Positions 56,895-64,000 of a stretch of DNA of 64,000 bases are shown piece by piece. Origin of the DNA: an uncultured Flavobacteriaceae bacterium (GTDB taxonomy: Bacteria > Bacteroidota > Bacteroidia > Flavobacteriales > Flavobacteriaceae); NCBI GenBank assembly GCA_937959395.1, contig CALGLR010000072.1, positions 1 to 64,000 of the forward strand, given 5' to 3'. Position 1 is the first letter of the stretch, and each line of letters starts with the position of its first letter. A program made the position numbers and the translations under genes. The notes beneath the pieces were generated by a model. It was given only the letters and a program-made list of their open reading frames with translations, ran no database searches and had not been told where the DNA came from.

Positions 56895-57794
56895 CTAATA
56901 AGTTTCGCAAATATATTTTTTGATCATATGTTTTGTGATTTTTTTTAATGTTTTTGCTGTTTCTGGATGAAGTCCGAAACCAGTAAAATATTCTAACTTT
57001 CCTTTTTTATTCTTTCCATACCATATATTTTCACTTCCATCTTCTTTAAAAAATGTAGTATCGCAATTTGCTTCAATTAGTTTAAAATTTAAGATGCGAT
57101 CTTTTTGATATAATTTTAATTGATTAAAATCATATTTGTTAAGGTTAAAATTTACTTTTTCATAATGATCATCTTTCCATATCATCCAATTGGGTTTGCT
57201 ATTTATAGTTATTGTAAATAATGTAGTAGTAACAATAAGAATAGTTGCAATTATAATTTTAAATGATATTTTATTCATAGCCGAAGCAGAACTATACCAT
57301 GCAAATATTTTTTTGTTTTTAGACTTAACAATTATATCCGGATTAGCTTCATTTTCTGAAATATAATTTATCGTTGTATCAAAAGCTTCTATATCTTCAT
57401 TTTCGATCACTTTTTCATCCAATTCGTTTTTATAATACCTATTATATGGTCTTGGATTAAAATCAATAATTATGGCTATTAATTCAATGGCGTAATGCTG
57501 TTGAATGGTTTCGGTTTTTTTTCTTAAAAACCTACAAATTGGTCTAAAGCAATCAATATCATATTTCTTTATCTTAACTAATAGGTTCTCTCCGCTTTTT
57601 AATTCAAAAAACTTTTCGATCGTTCTTCTATCTTCAACAGAAAGGTTTCTATCGATAGAATTCAAGCAAATTTTTTTAAGCCCTCCAGGAGTTAAGTTTC
57701 TTAAATCACCTCCTATAATACCATTTTCTTTATCATTTATATACTTCTTTCTTACATCATCTTTATAGGATTTATCGGTTTTTACAGTTTTCAT
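56895..57794 (-). CDS. Membrane-anchored protein of unknown function
   Basis: From the start chosen here (57794, MKTVKTDKSYKDDVRK) the protein has 299 residues. A soluble N-terminal part (about 1-170) is followed by one membrane helix (ISFKIIIATILIVTTTLFTITI, about 180-202). The C-terminal domain starts KPNWMIWKDDHYEKVNFN and ends GLHPETAKTLKKITKHMIKKYI. I know no family function. An open frame continues upstream to 57890, but that part is the repetitive leader with GGAYT words. A palindrome with a -7-like box at 57918-57962 reads towards this gene, so it may belong to the regulon of the adjacent two-component system. Confidence 0.6.
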   Translation of the reverse strand: MKTVKTDKSYKDDVRKKYINDKENGIIGGDLRNLTPGGLKKICLNSIDRNLSVEDRRTIEKFFELKSGENLLVKIKKYDIDCFRPICRFLRKKTETIQQHYAIELIAIIIDFNPRPYNRYYKNELDEKVIENEDIEAFDTTINYISENEANPDIIVKSKNKKIFAWYSSASAMNKISFKIIIATILIVTTTLFTITINSKPNWMIWKDDHYEKVNFNLNKYDFNQLKLYQKDRILNFKLIEANCDTTFFKEDGSENIWYGKNKKGKLEYFTGFGLHPETAKTLKKITKHMIKKYICETY

Positions 57795-57808
57795 TTTATG
57801 GCTTTTCA

Positions 57809-57851
57809 GGATTTTATAGGACTCTGTTGGATTCTTCGGACTCTTCGGATT
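57809..57851. repeat. Five GGAYT words at 9-10 bp spacing
   Basis: GGATT or GGACT begins at 57809, 57819, 57829, 57838 and 57847 (plus strand). The steps of 10, 10, 9 and 9 are close to one helical turn. It lies in the leader of the minus-strand gene. Confidence 0.5.
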
Positions 57852-57917
57852 TCCATTCAAAAAAGGCTTGTTTCCCAATGTACCTTGCACTCAAGAATCA
57901 ACCCTAACTATGTAAAG

Positions 57918-57962
57918 CTAACATAATTAATGTATACAATAGATTCTTACGGAAATCCATAA
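57918..57962 (-). promoter_or_regulatory. Palindromic operator (site 1) with -7-like box
   Basis: The palindrome TTACGG-AAAT-CCATAA (57947-57962, one mismatched pair) is followed, reading the minus strand, by 21 nt and then TATGTTAG (57925-57918), one base off TAnnTTTG. The same layout is seen at sites 2 and 3. The palindrome also lies 156 nt upstream of the lipoprotein-kinase-regulator operon. Confidence 0.5.
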
Positions 57963-58117
57963 TGCGGTTGTAATAGCCAAATTGGAAAGTAGCTAAACGC
58001 TACTGTATTAAGATTTTCACTTTCCAAAATTAGAAGATTTAATAACCTGAAAGGGTTGCTACAAATTGTTCGAGTAAAATCTCGAGGAGGCACTCTTTTG
58101 TCAAATTTTTAAGAAAG

Positions 58118-58294
58118 ATGAAAACTATTTTATATGTAATGATAGCTCTTTTTATGAGCGTTAATTTTACGTCTTGTACGCCAACTAGTATTAATGACAC
58201 AGAACAAACACCTCAAGCGTGTTGTGATGAAGATTCTGAAATTCCACCACCACCACCACCACCGCCTCCAGGAGGAGGAGTTGTTGGAGGATAA
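58118..58294 (+). CDS. Small poly-proline lipoprotein upstream of sensor kinase
   Basis: A 58-residue lipoprotein (MKTILYVMIALFMSVNFTSC, lipid on Cys 20). The mature part has an acidic stretch with a CC pair, then nine consecutive prolines and a GGGVVGG tail. The ATG follows AAGAAAG as ribosome site. It ends 34 nt before the histidine kinase gene, so it is probably in the same operon. The proline run could span the periplasm or touch a partner; no known family. It could be a sensor accessory, but that is inference from position. Confidence 0.65.
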   Translation: MKTILYVMIALFMSVNFTSCTPTSINDTEQTPQACCDEDSEIPPPPPPPPPGGGVVGG

Positions 58295-58328
58295 TACTTA
58301 ACTTAAAATTAGTTAGTACTTTAGAGGA

Positions 58329-59978
58329 ATGAAAGGATTAAGAACTTCATTCCTCTTTTTTTATTTGCTATTATTCTCATTGAATAATTTAAGTGCTCAA
58401 GAATTAATTGATAGTTTAAAGTACTATAGTAATATAATTAGGGCCCCTAAAAATTCAGGAGATTTATCTTCTGCTTATTTGTTTTTTATGAATCGTAAAG
58501 ATTCTTCAATTGAAAAGAAGGAAATTGAAAAGGTAATATATTACTATATACAGATAGCTAGAGTTGAAAATAAATTAGGAGAGATATATAATAGTGAGAA
58601 TTCAATTATTGAAGCACTTAAATTGTTAGATGAGTTAAAAGAGAACGATTGGATTTTAAGAAATAAAATAACAATATTTAATCATTTAGGTATTCTTAAT
58701 AAAAGGCAGTTAAAATACTCAGAAGCATTAAAAAACTACGATAGTGTTCTAAGCATTACTACAAAAGATGTAGATATAGCAAAAGCCTATGGTAATAAGG
58801 GTAATGTTTATTCAAAGCAAGGGTATTATGACAAGGCGATTAAAGAATATAGAAAAGCTCTAAAGATATCTTTGAAAAAAGGCAGACCAAAAATGGAAGC
58901 TAGGTTTAAAGACAATTTAGGTTTAGCTCAATCGAAGTTAAATTTACCAGAAGCTTTGAATAACATGTTAGATGCTTTAAAGATTAGAAAAGAAAAAAAA
59001 TTTACTCAAGGTATTATTACTAGTTATTTAAATTTAACAGAATATTATTCAGATAGAGAGTCGTTAAATAAAGCTAAACTTTATGCAAAACTTGCTTTAA
59101 CTATAGCAGATTCCAGTAATATCCTTGATTATAGATTAGAATCATTAGCTTCTGTTTTAAAATTGAATCAGGATGAAAAATTTAAAGAGTTTTTAATATT
59201 GAATGATGGCTTAAAAACGAATGAACTTTTAAATAATAAGAAATACGCCGAAGCAAAATATAACTACAATAAACAAAGCAAAAGGGCAGATTTAAATAAG
59301 CTTAATGCGGAACGACAAAAACGATTCAAACTTCTTTATTTATCAATAGCTGCATTTATAATATTTCTTTCAATTTTCTTGTATACAATATTAAAGGTCA
59401 GGCACAAAAAAGAAAAACTCCAGCAAGTCTATAATACCGAAAAACGTATTTCTAAGAAAGTTCATGATGAGGTAGCTAACGATGTTTTTCAAATTATGAC
59501 TAAACTTCAAAGTGAACCTGCTATAAATGAAAATGTGATAGACGATTTAGATCATATTTATAGTAAAACAAGAGATATTGCTAAAGAACATGCTGTTTTA
59601 GATTATGATGGTGATTTTGAACAGGTATTACATGATTTGTTGCTAAGTTATAATAGTAATACCGTGAATGTGATTTCTAAAGCGATTACTAAAGTGAATT
59701 GGGAATCTATTTCAAAAATTAAAAAAGAGACTATTTATAAAGTGCTCCAAGAATTTATGATTAATATGACGAAACATAGCAAAGCTTCTATAGCAGTATT
59801 AACTTTTAATGAAACTAGAAAAAAAATAAAAATCACTTATAAAGATAATGGAGTGGGGTGCAAATTGAAAAAGAATACAGGATTACAAAATGTGGAAAAC
59901 CGTATAGAATCTATTAATGGAACATTTATTTTTGAATCAGAAATTAATAATGGTTTTAAAGCCGAAATCACTGTATAA
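58329..59978 (+). CDS. TPR-containing histidine kinase (HisKA_3 type)
   Basis: Sensor kinase of 549 residues. A signal peptide (about 1-24) leads to a periplasmic region with tetratricopeptide repeats (about 100-270; AKAYGNKGNVYSKQGYYDKAIKEYRKALK is a clear repeat). A membrane helix follows at about 335-357 (LLYLSIAAFIIFLSIFLYTIL). In the cytosol, the phosphoacceptor is H379 in KKVHDEVANDVFQ, typical of NarX/LiaS-like kinases, and the ATPase domain shows LQEFMINMTKHSKA and DNGVGCKLKKNTGLQNVENRI. It is followed 3 nt later by its response regulator. Confidence 0.92.
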   Translation: MKGLRTSFLFFYLLLFSLNNLSAQELIDSLKYYSNIIRAPKNSGDLSSAYLFFMNRKDSSIEKKEIEKVIYYYIQIARVENKLGEIYNSENSIIEALKLLDELKENDWILRNKITIFNHLGILNKRQLKYSEALKNYDSVLSITTKDVDIAKAYGNKGNVYSKQGYYDKAIKEYRKALKISLKKGRPKMEARFKDNLGLAQSKLNLPEALNNMLDALKIRKEKKFTQGIITSYLNLTEYYSDRESLNKAKLYAKLALTIADSSNILDYRLESLASVLKLNQDEKFKEFLILNDGLKTNELLNNKKYAEAKYNYNKQSKRADLNKLNAERQKRFKLLYLSIAAFIIFLSIFLYTILKVRHKKEKLQQVYNTEKRISKKVHDEVANDVFQIMTKLQSEPAINENVIDDLDHIYSKTRDIAKEHAVLDYDGDFEQVLHDLLLSYNSNTVNVISKAITKVNWESISKIKKETIYKVLQEFMINMTKHSKASIAVLTFNETRKKIKITYKDNGVGCKLKKNTGLQNVENRIESINGTFIFESEINNGFKAEITV

Positions 59979-59981
59979 CAA

Positions 59982-60647
59982 ATGTTTGTAAAAGTATTAA
60001 TAGTAGATGATCATGACGATATTAATAATGGCGTATTAGAAATACTAAGTGCGTTAGGTATAAAAAATATACAGCAATCACAGTATTGCGACGATGCGCA
60101 ATTAAAAATAAAGAGAGCGATTTTTGATAAACAACCTTTCGATTTATTAATCACAGATTTATCATTTAAAAAAGACCACCGAGAGGTTAGATTAAAAAAT
60201 GGAGACGATTTAATTGCTGCATTACGAATAGATTATCCGGAGTTACCAATTATAGTATACTCTATGATCGATCTTTTACAAAAAGTAAGAGTTTTGGTTA
60301 GCAAACACAATGTAAATGCTTACGTCTGCAAAGGAAGAAAAGGCTCTGTTGAGTTATCTCAAGCTATAAAAAACGTTTACAATAATGAACAGTTTTTATC
60401 TACCCAAGTTGCACGTGCATTGAGCCCCAAAACCAATATTGAAATTGACGATTTTGATATTGAATTAGTAAAACAGCTCTCTTTAGGGCAACTTCAAAAT
60501 GAAATAAGCGATTATTTTAAGGCCAATAATATTTCTCCAAGCAGCGTAAGTTCTATTGAGAAACGTTTAAACAAACTTCGTATTCAATTTAAAGCCGATA
60601 ATGCGACACACTTAGTCGCAAAAATGAAAGATCTAGGCTTAATATAA
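59982..60647 (+). CDS. LuxR-like response regulator
   Basis: A 221-residue regulator. The receiver (about 1-130) shows VDDHDD acidic residues, phosphoacceptor aspartate in LLITDLSF, switch serine in VYSMID and the lysine in AYVCKGRKG. The C-terminal 70 residues (LVKQLSLGQLQNEISDYFKANNISPSSVSSIEKRLNKLRIQFKADN) follow the helix pattern of a NarL/LuxR DNA-binding domain but lack its usual ExEVL core, so it is divergent. It is coupled to the kinase. Three palindromes TTRCGG-N4-CCRYAA in the surrounding 3.2 kb are good candidates for its binding sites. Confidence 0.9.
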   Translation: MFVKVLIVDDHDDINNGVLEILSALGIKNIQQSQYCDDAQLKIKRAIFDKQPFDLLITDLSFKKDHREVRLKNGDDLIAALRIDYPELPIIVYSMIDLLQKVRVLVSKHNVNAYVCKGRKGSVELSQAIKNVYNNEQFLSTQVARALSPKTNIEIDDFDIELVKQLSLGQLQNEISDYFKANNISPSSVSSIEKRLNKLRIQFKADNATHLVAKMKDLGLI

Positions 60648-60656
60648 TTACTCTTA

Positions 60657-60676
60657 ATTCCTTTGAAAAAAGGAAT
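60657..60676. repeat. 8-4-8 hairpin after response regulator gene
   Basis: ATTCCTTT-GAAA-AAAGGAAT, a perfect 8-bp stem of the same 20-nt family as 10223, 11820 and 18531. It lies 9 nt after the stop codon. Confidence 0.65.
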
Positions 60677-60688
60677 CTATTTTATGTG

Positions 60689-60733
60689 TTGCGGTTTACC
60701 GTAAGGATTGTTCTTGTCTTAGATTTAGTTTTG
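60689..60733 (+). promoter_or_regulatory. Palindromic operator (site 2) with -7 box
   Basis: TTGCGG-TTTA-CCGTAA (60689-60704), 21 nt, then TAGTTTTG (60726-60733), a full TAnnTTTG match. The palindrome would overlap the -33 region, the usual place of an activator touching RNA polymerase. It lies 59 nt before the YegP-like gene. Confidence 0.65.
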
Positions 60734-60763
60734 AGTATTTATTAATATTTAAAACTAAAGATT

Positions 60764-61099
60764 ATGGGAAAACCAAAATTTGAAATTAAAAAAAGCAGTA
60801 ACGATCAATTCTATTTTAATTTAAAAGCAGGGAATGGAGAGGTTATTTTAACTAGCGAAATGTACAAAGCAAAACAAGGTTGTATTGGTGGAATTGCATC
60901 TGTAAAAGTAAATGCGCCTTTCGATAAGAACTACCAACGAAAAGTAGCTATAAATGGGCAGTATTATTTTAATTTAAAAGCAGCTAGTGGAGAGATTATA
61001 GGGACTAGCGAAATGTATAACACAGCGCAGGGAAGAGATAATGGAATTGAAGCTGTAAAGCGAGATGCTCCAATTGCAGGAACTGAGGATCTAACTTAA
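60764..61099 (+). CDS. YegP-like DUF1508 double-repeat protein
   Basis: A 111-residue cytosolic protein made of two DUF1508 repeats: KFEIKKSSNDQFYFNLKAGNGEVILTSEMY (about 4-33) and RKVAINGQYYFNLKAASGEIIGTSEMY (about 62-88). Each is followed by GGIASVKVNAP or NGIEAVKRDAP. This is the E. coli YegP layout. The biochemical role is unknown. It has its own upstream palindrome and -7 box (site 2), which suggests control by the adjacent response regulator. Confidence 0.92.
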   Translation: MGKPKFEIKKSSNDQFYFNLKAGNGEVILTSEMYKAKQGCIGGIASVKVNAPFDKNYQRKVAINGQYYFNLKAASGEIIGTSEMYNTAQGRDNGIEAVKRDAPIAGTEDLT

Positions 61100-61121
61100 C
61101 ATTCTTATTTTCTAAATTTTT

Positions 61122-61171
61122 AAGCCTTACGGAAACCCGTAAGGCTTTGTTTGTTAATGGGTTTAAGTTTG
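61122..61171 (+). promoter_or_regulatory. Palindromic operator (site 3) inside hairpin, with -7 box
   Basis: TTACGG-AAAC-CCGTAA (61127-61142) is the core of an 11-bp perfect stem (61122-61132 with 61137-61147) that may also terminate the YegP-like transcript. After exactly 21 nt comes TAAGTTTG (61164-61171), a full TAnnTTTG match, 28 nt before the next gene. Confidence 0.65.
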
Positions 61172-61199: not shown

Positions 61200-61331
61200 A
61201 TGAGTAAACAACCACAAAAACCAGCAAATTGGCCAAGCAGAAATTCTAATAAACCTTCAGGTTCTGGAAGAGATAATAATCCACCGAGACCATTAAAACC
61301 AATAACACCATCAAAACCAATTATTAAATAG
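61200..61331 (+). CDS. Short Pro/Ser/Lys-rich protein
   Basis: A 43-residue protein (MSKQPQKPANWPSRNSNKPS then GSGRDNNPPRPLKPIT...), basic and probably disordered. It starts 58 nt after palindrome site 3 and is followed 7 nt later by the next small gene. No function is known. Its conserved-looking promoter and tight operon place support a real gene despite its size. Confidence 0.55.
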   Translation: MSKQPQKPANWPSRNSNKPSGSGRDNNPPRPLKPITPSKPIIK

Positions 61332-61338
61332 AAATATT

Positions 61339-61476
61339 ATGGCTAAACAAAGAAAAACAGGTAAAGGAGCTGCTTCTGCAGCTTCAAGAGTGTTAAAAGA
61401 TGGAGGAACTGGTAAAGACAGTAAGAAAGCAGCTGGAAGTGCATTGTCTCAACGAGCACCAAAAAAGAAAAAATAG
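61339..61476 (+). CDS. Short basic Ala/Ser/Lys-rich protein
   Basis: A 45-residue basic protein: MAKQRKTGKGAASAASRVLK, then DGGTGKDSKKAAGSALSQR and a lysine tail. The repeated pattern (G-K-D/T-S-K-A-A-GSALSQ) resembles small basic proteins that I recall from other Bacteroidota accessory regions. They could bind nucleic acid, but that is a guess. It is in the same unit as the preceding gene. Confidence 0.6.
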   Translation: MAKQRKTGKGAASAASRVLKDGGTGKDSKKAAGSALSQRAPKKKK

Positions 61477-61504
61477 AAGGATTTAATTATTTATAAAGAC
61501 AATT

Positions 61505-61738
61505 ATGGAATATAAAGTAATACCATTTGTAGCGTCAATAGATTCAAAAAAAGGAAATTCAAATCATGTAGCGGATCAATTAGAACAAATCATTAAACAT
61601 TATTCTAATCAAGGGTGGAAATATATTAGGTTAGAAAGTGTATCAACATTAGTTCAACCAAATACTGGTTGCTTTGGTTTTGGTGCAACTCCAGGATATA
61701 CAACAGAAAGACAAATGGTTGTTTTTAGCAAAGCGTAA
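61505..61738 (+). CDS. DUF4177-like small protein
   Basis: A 77-residue protein resembling DUF4177-type small proteins: MEYKVIPFVASI start and the central ADQLEQIIKHYSNQGWKYIRLESV, where the GW-[KE]-[YF] turn is typical. It ends with a hydrophobic strand RQMVVFSKA. Its stop overlaps the next start by one base (TAATG), implying coupled translation with the YidD-like gene. Confidence 0.7.
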   Translation: MEYKVIPFVASIDSKKGNSNHVADQLEQIIKHYSNQGWKYIRLESVSTLVQPNTGCFGFGATPGYTTERQMVVFSKA

Positions 61739-62013
61739 TGAAAGTCTTTCTTCTACTAATTATCAAATTGTATTGGTTTTTAATACCAAAATCTAATCGT
61801 AGAAAATGTTTGTTTAAGACATCGTGTTCAAATTATGTTTATGAAGAAACAAAAACAAAAGGATTATTCTCTGGCATGAGGGCATTGAAATTTAGGGTTC
61901 AAAATTGTAACTCTAATTATAGTTTAATGGAATTAAATGGAAGGCAAGTTTTAATTACTAAAACCTATCAAGTATTTAAAGAAGAAGAAATCAGTAAATC
62001 AATTTTAAAATAA
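61738..62013 (+). CDS. YidD-like small membrane-associated protein
   Basis: A 91-residue protein with a hydrophobic start (VFLLLIIKLYWFLIP) followed by KCLFKTSCSNYVYEETKTKGLFSGMRALKFRVQNC. This has the YidD arrangement, in which two cysteines border a stretch of the form PTCSxYxxxxxxxxG...R.xxC. True YidD assists membrane protein insertion together with YidC and lies beside rnpA. This copy instead lies in a cluster of tiny accessory genes and has a charged C-terminal extension, so it is a paralogue with a possibly different client. Confidence 0.7.
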   Translation: MKVFLLLIIKLYWFLIPKSNRRKCLFKTSCSNYVYEETKTKGLFSGMRALKFRVQNCNSNYSLMELNGRQVLITKTYQVFKEEEISKSILK

Positions 62014-62869: not shown

Positions 62870-63274
62870 ATGGAAAAATCAACCATTACAATGGAATTGA
62901 GAAGTCATTTTCTACGCTTGTATCAAATCGCATTATCCGACGAAAATTTTAGTCATTTAGAAATGCAATTACTATACAAGTTTGCAGATGAGCGAGACGT
63001 GTCTAAAACAGAATTAGAAGACATATTAAAAGGAAGTTCTGGAAGCATAACTATACCAGAAACTTTAGAGAAAAGACTCGAATACTTATACGATTTTGCA
63101 ATGATGGTTTGGGCAGATGGAATAATAACAGAGGATGAGGAAATTGCGTTAAAAAAATACATTCTAAAATTCGAATTTGAAAAAGAAAACGTTGATGCAT
63201 TATCGGCTTATTTATTAGAAAGTGCTAAAGAAAATAAATCTAAAGAATCGCTTTTAAAAGAATTAAACGAATAA
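62870..63274 (+). CDS. TerB-like helical protein
   Basis: A 134-residue all-helical protein resembling the TerB/tellurite-resistance-like fold: HFLRLYQIALSDENFSHLEMQLLYKFADERDVSKTELEDIL, then YDFAMMVWADGIITEDEEIALKKYILKF. The acidic DG-x-(I/L)-T-x-x-E stretch after the W/A-D motif is typical of metal-binding TerB sites. Such domains are often linked to stress or phage-related clusters. It is 4 nt before the next, partial gene, with which it is likely cotranscribed. Confidence 0.75.
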   Translation: MEKSTITMELRSHFLRLYQIALSDENFSHLEMQLLYKFADERDVSKTELEDILKGSSGSITIPETLEKRLEYLYDFAMMVWADGIITEDEEIALKKYILKFEFEKENVDALSAYLLESAKENKSKESLLKELNE

Positions 63275-63278
63275 AGTT

Positions 63279-64000
63279 ATGGGACTATTAAAAAAACTAA
63301 CACAGTTAACTTCTCAAAAAGAGAACGAAGAAGAAACTAAAACAGAATCAATAGAAACACAAAAAATTACCTATAAAGAAGATGGTAAAAAAAATTCTGA
63401 AGACTGTTCTGGGAATCCTTATAATTTAGAAATTTCTTTAGAAACTATTTACCAAGCATTCGAAAACAAATGTAAACGAGATGCTTTATCTCAGCATCAG
63501 TTAAAACAACCTTATTCAGCAGAACAAAAGGGCAAAAAGACAACATTATTAAATAAAGATGAAGAATTAAGGCGATTAGAAAAAAATGTTAATGCTGTAT
63601 ATACTGAAATAGATAACTTAAATAAAGAGTGTAGAAAAGTAAAAACAAATCCAGAAGACTATTTGTTGGATGTTGACAAAAAGGCAAGTGCTAAATTTTG
63701 GATAGGGATAAGTTTTCTTATACCATTAGCCGTTTACGTTTTTGTATTTTACATTTCAACTTCATTTTCTGCGTTTTTTAGAGAGTTCGATCCAGGAACG
63801 AGTTTGTTTAAGGGTATGTTTGATCCAGAAGCACTTTCTAAAGCTTACGAAGCAGGTGCTCTCGAGTTAATTTTCATTCTTTTCATTCCTTTTGTGTTTT
63901 TCGCTTTAGGTTATTTAATACATATGTTTCAAGAGAAACGAGGAGTAGTTAGTAAACTAAAAATAGTAATGCTTTTTGTTATTACGTTCTTGTTTGATGC
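63279..64000 (+). CDS. Membrane protein, partial at window end
   Basis: The frame is open from ATG 63279 to the end of the window (240 codons seen). A charged, probably coiled-coil N-terminal part (KKASA-rich, LRRLEKNVNAVYTEIDNLNKECRK near 106-130) precedes membrane segments at about 144-165 (FWIGISFLIPLAVYVFVFYI), 196-218 (LIFILFIPFVFFALGYLIHMF) and a third entering the window edge. It begins 5 nt after the TerB-like gene stop. No family is recognised. Confidence 0.65.
   Translation, partial: MGLLKKLTQLTSQKENEEETKTESIETQKITYKEDGKKNSEDCSGNPYNLEISLETIYQAFENKCKRDALSQHQLKQPYSAEQKGKKTTLLNKDEELRRLEKNVNAVYTEIDNLNKECRKVKTNPEDYLLDVDKKASAKFWIGISFLIPLAVYVFVFYISTSFSAFFREFDPGTSLFKGMFDPEALSKAYEAGALELIFILFIPFVFFALGYLIHMFQEKRGVVSKLKIVMLFVITFLFD

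Follow-up and report, generated by a model that had tools for sequence, protein, structure and literature searches.

The window analysed here is a stretch of 64,000 nucleotides (nt) from an uncultured Flavobacteriaceae bacterium (GenBank assembly GCA_937959395.1, contig CALGLR010000072.1, positions 1 to 64,000 of the forward strand). It encodes a two-component system, a sensor histidine kinase and a response regulator, which is surrounded by three palindromes, several small genes, a structured RNA and a divergent membrane protein (Table 1). A preliminary description had reported that the palindromes share one design and that each lies 21 nt from a −7 box. When the window sequence was checked, all coordinates held and the spacing was exact at all three sites, with perfect boxes at sites 2 and 3 and one mismatch at site 1. 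The pattern TTRCGGNNNNCCRYAA gave five strand matches at three places in the 64 kb, compared with 0.01 expected from dinucleotide shuffles. In the whole 4.3-Mb genome the exact pattern occurred at six places, three of which are held by the window; the chance of three exact places in a 3.25-kb stretch fixed beforehand is about 1e-8.

Table 1. Features of the two-component locus, with positions in the window. ORF, open reading frame.
Feature	Position	Strand	Basis or remark
Membrane protein with C-terminal ..F[T]..HP motif, downstream of RNA-B	56895–57890	−	start may be the ATG at 57794
RNA-B, structured RNA divergent from the kinase	~57892–58106	−	alignment, pair counts; no Rfam match
Box TATGTTAG	57918–57925	−	one mismatch; 21 nt from palindrome 1
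Palindrome 1, TTACGGAAATCCATAA	57947–57962	−	minus-strand reading TTATGGATTTCCGTAA; ambiguous, coincides with pseudoknot strand of RNA-B
Small lipoprotein-like ORF between RNA-B and kinase	58118–58294	+	ORF list
Sensor histidine kinase with TPR region	58329–59978	+	TPR, weak HATPase_c; H379 and ATPase residues conserved among 76 kinases
Response regulator, RcsB-like fold, presumed palindrome binder	59982–60647	+	profile matches, orthologues, structure model
Palindrome 2, TTGCGGTTTACCGTAA	60689–60704	+	putative operator of DUF1508 gene; design conserved
−7 box TAGTTTTG	60726–60733	+	21 nt from palindrome 2
YegP-like (DUF1508) protein, putative target	60764–61099	+	Pfam; box to ATG 30 nt
11-bp hairpin around palindrome 3	61122–61147	+	sequence
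Palindrome 3, TTACGGAAACCCGTAA	61127–61142	+	putative operator of small-gene cassette
−7 box TAAGTTTG	61164–61171	+	21 nt from palindrome 3
Small Pro-rich protein, putative target	61200–61331	+	ORF; ATG begins 28 nt after the box
Consecutive genes for a small basic, a DUF4177-like (below cut-off) and a YidD-like protein	61339–62013	+	ORFs, profiles

Kinases were found in 76 of 80 loci, the window included, and H379 together with the ATPase residues N479, D506, G508 and G510 was kept in at least 95% of these 76 proteins. Relative to the end of the kinase stop codon, the start of the regulator gene ranges from 1 nt before it to 4 nt beyond it. Its product has the predicted acidic-pocket receiver of NarL/FixJ regulators, with the phospho-acceptor Asp, Ser/Thr and Lys; residues D10, D59, S94 and K117 were invariant among 22 orthologues. 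The Response_reg profile matched with an E-value of 9.8e-07, yet its 29.4 bits fell short of the cut-off of 30.2, and the DNA-binding domain gave only a DUF5932 match below the cut-off (19.5 versus 23.7 bits). Since no Pfam match to GerE was found by sequence, the C-terminal LuxR-type helix-turn-helix is assigned by fold only: a structure model (predicted local distance difference test, pLDDT, 88) had DNA-bound RcsB as its best match (template-modelling, TM, scores 0.67 and 0.72) and matched RcsB, LiaR and EvgA over the whole length.

To place the sites in an evolutionary context, relatives of the regulator were searched at E ≤ 1e-12 and found in 157 of 397 Flavobacteriaceae genomes. In the first set (20 genomes, 20 regulator regions, 319 kb), TTRYGGN4CCRYAA occurred at 38 places, whereas 60 permuted palindromes averaged 0.22 places with a maximum of two; perfect boxes numbered 28 at spacing 21 and at most three at any other. 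The second set comprised 79 loci in named genomes, including Bizionia, Winogradskyella, Flavivirga, Lacinutrix, Olleya, Polaribacter, Tenacibaculum and Dokdonia, with partial genome overlap with the first 20. A palindrome with at most one mismatch lay within 400 nt 3′ of the regulator in 70 of the 79, and in 66 of these 70 a box with no more than one mismatch followed at 21 nt. Perfect palindromes occupied 120 places in 65 loci. A perfect box followed 87 of these places at a distance of exactly 21 nt, compared with eight at 15, the runner-up spacing. The promoter-proximal half-site was the stricter one (CCGTAA, often followed by GG). Even among distant regulators (~36 to 45% identical), the palindrome–21–box arrangement with at most one mismatch in all was present in 15 of 19 regions. 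The comparison of the same loci in related genomes that the preliminary description had proposed thus shows sites that are kept in a phase fixed at 21 nt. A chance origin of the sites was rejected on the shuffles and the permuted palindromes, and the regulatory design is real and conserved.

An operator centred at −41.5 is the classic position of a class II activator. In Flavobacterium psychrophilum the TAnnTTTG box occupies −12 to −5 (PMC9723704), and a palindrome 21 nt upstream of it would therefore span −49 to −34, with its centre at −41.5. The predicted operators thus stand near −41.5 at a constant distance from the box, which fits the earlier suggestion that the palindrome covers the −33 region as for an activator. 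From box to start codon the median distance was 29 nt (91 sites with an ORF, of 111). This geometry bears on two other accounts of the palindromes. They could be terminators or RNA hairpins instead of operators, given that palindrome 3 lies within an 11-bp hairpin, that palindrome 1 falls in a pseudoknot strand of RNA-B, and that in several relatives the second palindrome forms a terminator-like hairpin ending the preceding transcript. A terminator needs no fixed 21-nt phase, however, and the phase was found at 87 of 120 places as well as at remote sites, which makes this account very improbable; the hairpin at palindrome 3 may nevertheless also terminate the upstream transcript. Even less credible are integron-like recombination sites that collect gene cassettes. 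The cassettes do consist of fast-changing small genes with one site before each, but the promoter phase is exact, most box-to-start distances are near 29 nt, and single remote sites stand before defence operons.

The palindromes also follow the regulator across genomes. Of 157 regulator-positive genomes, 107 contained TTACGGN4CCGTAA (258 places), as did 33 of 240 negative ones (42 places; Fisher 7e-29, n = 397), whereas the reversed pattern, in 37 positive and 44 negative genomes, showed no such difference. Among 30 sampled places, a box of at most one mismatch stood at 21 nt in 18 of 22 from positive genomes and in one of eight from negative genomes. The 33 negative genomes with a palindrome, together with the fact that binding by the regulator is a prediction, leave room for a different binding protein. 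We consider this improbable, as negative genomes hold 0.175 places each, like the reversed control (42 versus 53 places), the box accompanies just one of their eight sampled places, the palindrome lies directly 3′ of the regulator in 70 of 79 loci, and palindromes follow the regulator even where the divergent HP-motif membrane protein was not recognised. Five negative genomes had at least two palindromes. Two of them (G010 and G393) hold broken remains of the regulator gene while the palindromes persist; the remaining three showed no regulator trace. The two-component system is by far the likeliest regulator of the palindrome promoters, and the nomination of the adjacent response regulator as candidate activator is backed by site conservation, the 21-nt phase and co-occurrence.

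Beside the regulator, the first ORFs after the palindromes numbered 91 and fell into 46 clusters; by eye they included DUF1508, small Pro/Lys-rich, Cys-rich, TerB, GIY-YIG, KTSC and vWA proteins. To characterise promoters elsewhere, the surroundings of remote palindromes were examined in 26 genomes besides the source, one of which (G389) had no regulator match, and further palindromes of the source genome were added. In these regions (L246 to L317), 58 of 83 TTACGGN4CCGTAA places were followed at 21 nt by a box with one mismatch or none, and perfect boxes numbered 30 at this spacing and at most five at any other; seven palindromes in L246 to L277 had no box on either side. From 72 remote sites with a box, 11 were dropped (no gene, or the first gene at least 700 nt away). 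The remaining 61, which deliberately included a site on source contig C107 with one palindrome mismatch, led to 59 distinct genes, each the largest among the first three.

These genes were compared with PADLOC, which covers known and candidate defence systems and cannot judge cargo of an unknown kind. At E ≤ 1e-10, 21 of 59 targets matched, compared with 4 of 30 control genes from displaced regions of the same genomes (one-sided p 0.022; target batches 5/10, 0/10, 5/10, 4/10, 3/10 and 4/9, control batches 0/10, 1/10 and 3/10). At E ≤ 1e-20 the counts were 19 of 59 and 2 of 30 (one-sided p 0.005). The matched targets included a ThsB-like TIR protein, ZorA (Zorya), a CBASS cyclase, SIR2-Argonaute, DRT2, DndD/PbeC, Cas9, five type I restriction or methylase genes, a DUF262-like HEC-06/Orf5, an AriA/AbiLi-like ATPase, PD-Lambda-1, an Hhe/PDC-S37 helicase, PDC-S06 twice, PDC-M49A, PDC-S60 and, in the source genome, HerA behind SIR2. 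The SIR2–HerA operon on contig C107 (L057:5377-8407) stands behind CTACGGTTTTCCGTAA-N21-TATATTTA, and a small Pro/Lys-rich ORF precedes it. The matched controls were DpdF/PsyrT models (by eye a RecQ-type helicase), PycTM, Cas1 and ZorB, the last by eye a general OmpA/MotB-like protein. By set, matches were found for 8 of 27 targets fetched before the idea of defence arose, 12 of 29 chosen afterwards, and one of three in the source genome; for the set of 29, whose genomes supplied the controls, the one-sided p was 0.016. Defence systems are likely targets of the palindrome promoters, and the two-component system probably activates both local small-gene cassettes and dispersed anti-phage systems.

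Several points weigh against this interpretation. Related genomes are not independent and the statistics ignore phylogeny. Of the 143 genomes that matched the regulator strongly, 39 had no perfect palindrome. In the source genome, one-mismatch palindromes were not enriched (52 matches versus 115 for the reversed control), nor was the palindrome–N21–box combination with up to three mismatches (186 versus 251), and just one of its three remote boxed sites precedes a known defence operon. Enrichment for defence genes is moderate: PADLOC left 38 of 59 targets unmatched, the two-sided p for the whole comparison was 0.044, and the second set was drawn from genomes chosen by palindrome number only (many palindromes). 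Targets were also longer than controls (mean 480 versus 378 amino acids, aa), and longer genes match more often (at least 300 aa: 20 of 42 targets versus 3 of 16 controls). A general degenerate genome-wide motif was rejected by the same one- and three-mismatch scans, and the source genome therefore contains few good sites. Of the two outcomes that the preliminary description had named as refuting it, random placement relative to genes and boxes and loss of the sites while the regulator is kept, neither occurred for close sites, although degenerate sites showed no genome-wide enrichment.

The pair might instead control the palindromes within a regulon of general envelope-stress or accessory genes, with defence operons merely sharing the same variable islands. 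Many of the 38 unmatched remote targets are by eye lipoproteins or secreted proteins, the genes beside the regulator vary greatly (91 ORFs in 46 clusters), and controls matched too (4 of 30). Nevertheless, the box lies exactly 21 nt away at defence sites as well, as for Cas9, whose ATG begins 30 nt after a perfect box, and 22 of the 61 sites led to a match, at about the same rate with a perfect box (11 of 30) as with one mismatch in it (11 of 31). We regard an envelope-stress or accessory regulon as rather unlikely.

For activation of cassettes and defence operons by the pair, we infer the following mechanism. Using its TPR region, the kinase would sense a signal on the outer side of the inner membrane and then phosphorylate the response regulator, a dimer of which would bind TTACGG-N4-CCGTAA. 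The bound regulator would then activate promoters by class II geometry, with the palindrome at about −49 to −34 and 21 nt before the TAnnTTTG box. Local targets would be the fast-changing small-gene cassette beside the regulator, distant ones the anti-phage defence operons elsewhere in the genome, and in many relatives a short terminator-ended small RNA (sRNA) beside the regulator would be a target as well. The regulon first proposed comprised the protein at 56895, the YegP-like gene and the small genes; sites 2 and 3 are supported as activator sites by association, site 1 is ambiguous, and the proposal appears too narrow because the same promoter design precedes dispersed defence operons.

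A bolder reading is a real possibility that we put forward tentatively. The pair may be a common trans-acting master switch of antiviral immunity, innate and adaptive, across Flavobacteriaceae, and unrelated systems (CRISPR-Cas9, Zorya, CBASS, TIR, Dnd, DRT, SIR2 types and type I restriction) may each have been captured into its one regulon once they gained this operator in this phase. The window cassette (DUF1508, small basic proteins, TerB and vWA) would then consist of uncharacterised immunity genes, and RNA-B would be a structured RNA part of the module. If true, a shared operator would let the cell raise several immunity layers together on one signal, palindrome plus 21 nt plus −7 box would provide a simple search key for new flavobacterial defence genes, and the coordination of defence islands would be reduced to a bench-testable question on one kinase–regulator pair.

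RNA-B is an undescribed structured RNA of 215–250 nt that runs divergently from the kinase; the reference row of its alignment shows two pseudoknots. Many flavobacterial loci encoding this two-component system conserve it, beside the HP-motif membrane protein; the C-terminal motif was present in 40 of 61 divergent ORFs found. TTRAGG-N4-CCRTAA, 21 nt and TCANTTTR occupied the RNA-B promoter position in 27 loci, 23 of which entered the alignment (the exceptions were L157, which showed no visible similarity, and L163, L191 and L212). Double changes occurred in 45 of 63 pairs (165 cells versus 63.5, reached by none of 500 shuffles), and slid controls favour the structure because it was drawn from one of the 26 sequences. 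No Rfam match was obtained at gathering thresholds or up to E 1. A palindrome or near-palindrome inside RNA-B was found in the window and in seven other loci (L148, L150, L151, L156, L160, L177 and L188), its first half coinciding with a pseudoknot strand (pairing judged by eye). The spacing of site 1 to TATGTTAG is therefore fixed by the RNA, whereas the persistence of the palindrome with different centres argues for a protein site as well. As a regulator site, site 1 is ambiguous, since the pseudoknotted RNA constrains the same bases. On contig C47 of the source genome (L056:5677-10578), a second cassette comprises a kinase paralogue, an RNA-B copy and a divergent membrane protein of 413 aa, and no regulator match was found on this contig. 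The site at C47:48562 was downgraded as an independent site, being the homologous pseudoknot strand of an RNA-B copy.

In many relatives the first palindrome 3′ of the regulator would drive an element of ~70 nt without an ORF, which opens with GCUAUUAAU precisely at +1, continues with a hairpin and ends in an intrinsic terminator. An example is L218:8724-8795, with 27 further aligned matches, often in tandem; GCTATTA began exactly at +1 in 23 of the 28 matches. With the sRNA model at E ≤ 0.05, a match just after the regulator was present in 24 of 79 loci, 13 of which had built the model. All 17 pairs showed double changes (113 cells versus 44 in shuffles) in an alignment that was fitted to the structure, with helix 1 only half paired, and whose 28 sequences came from 26 loci chosen from the 79 for having a match, 13 rows having built the model. 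Of 120 genomes, 33 had a model match, and 19 of these 33 lack the regulator, so the sRNA family is wider than the regulator, and an exclusive link between the two was downgraded. No match occurred in the window, and none in the source genome under stricter filters. Rfam searches of eight loci gave no match at gathering; an Rfam identity was rejected for this sRNA at gathering only and for RNA-B to E ≤ 1.

Among the window proteins, DUF1508, TerB and YidD scored above the Pfam cut-off. Further along, a TerB-like protein, a membrane protein, a vWA-like lipoprotein and a DUF4236-type protein, the latter three named by eye, stand in a row (window 62870-64000 and L063:1-2351), and a similar TerB row lies behind a palindrome promoter in another genome (L253:4791-7356). 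The TerB/vWA-type row suggests an uncharacterised system. By eye, ORFs resembling the lipoprotein-like one occur in other loci on the strand opposite RNA-B.

This motif, pair or defence regulon was not described in the open-access titles or abstract openings searched. Parts of the design resemble known systems. The regulator shares receiver and helix-turn-helix with the NarL/FixJ regulators RcsB, LiaR and EvgA, its top structural matches, but is ~20% identical to them and differs in operator and targets. The TPR-containing kinase recalls FimS of the FimS/FimR system of Porphyromonas gingivalis, and the NCBIfam FimS model matched residues 21-380 (3.5e-11), although far below the family cut-off (42.1 versus 600 bits). 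In the Gac/Rsm pathway, GacS/GacA acts with Rsm sRNAs, whose partner is the CsrA/RsmA protein. The LuxR-type regulator, the palindromic upstream site and, in many relatives, the short sRNA behind it are similar, whereas CsrA (PF02599) was found in none of 149 family genomes and the window had no sRNA model match; the Gac/Rsm pathway proper was rejected on the absence of CsrA. The usual view is that defence genes are expressed constitutively or under a regulator encoded in their own operon, and WYL-domain proteins, BrxR and CapW act on their own operon. What the present pair would share with these proteins is transcriptional control tied to defence genes; PMC10693628 is a paper on the WYL type. 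In contrast to them, a single two-component system would here act in trans on many unrelated systems.

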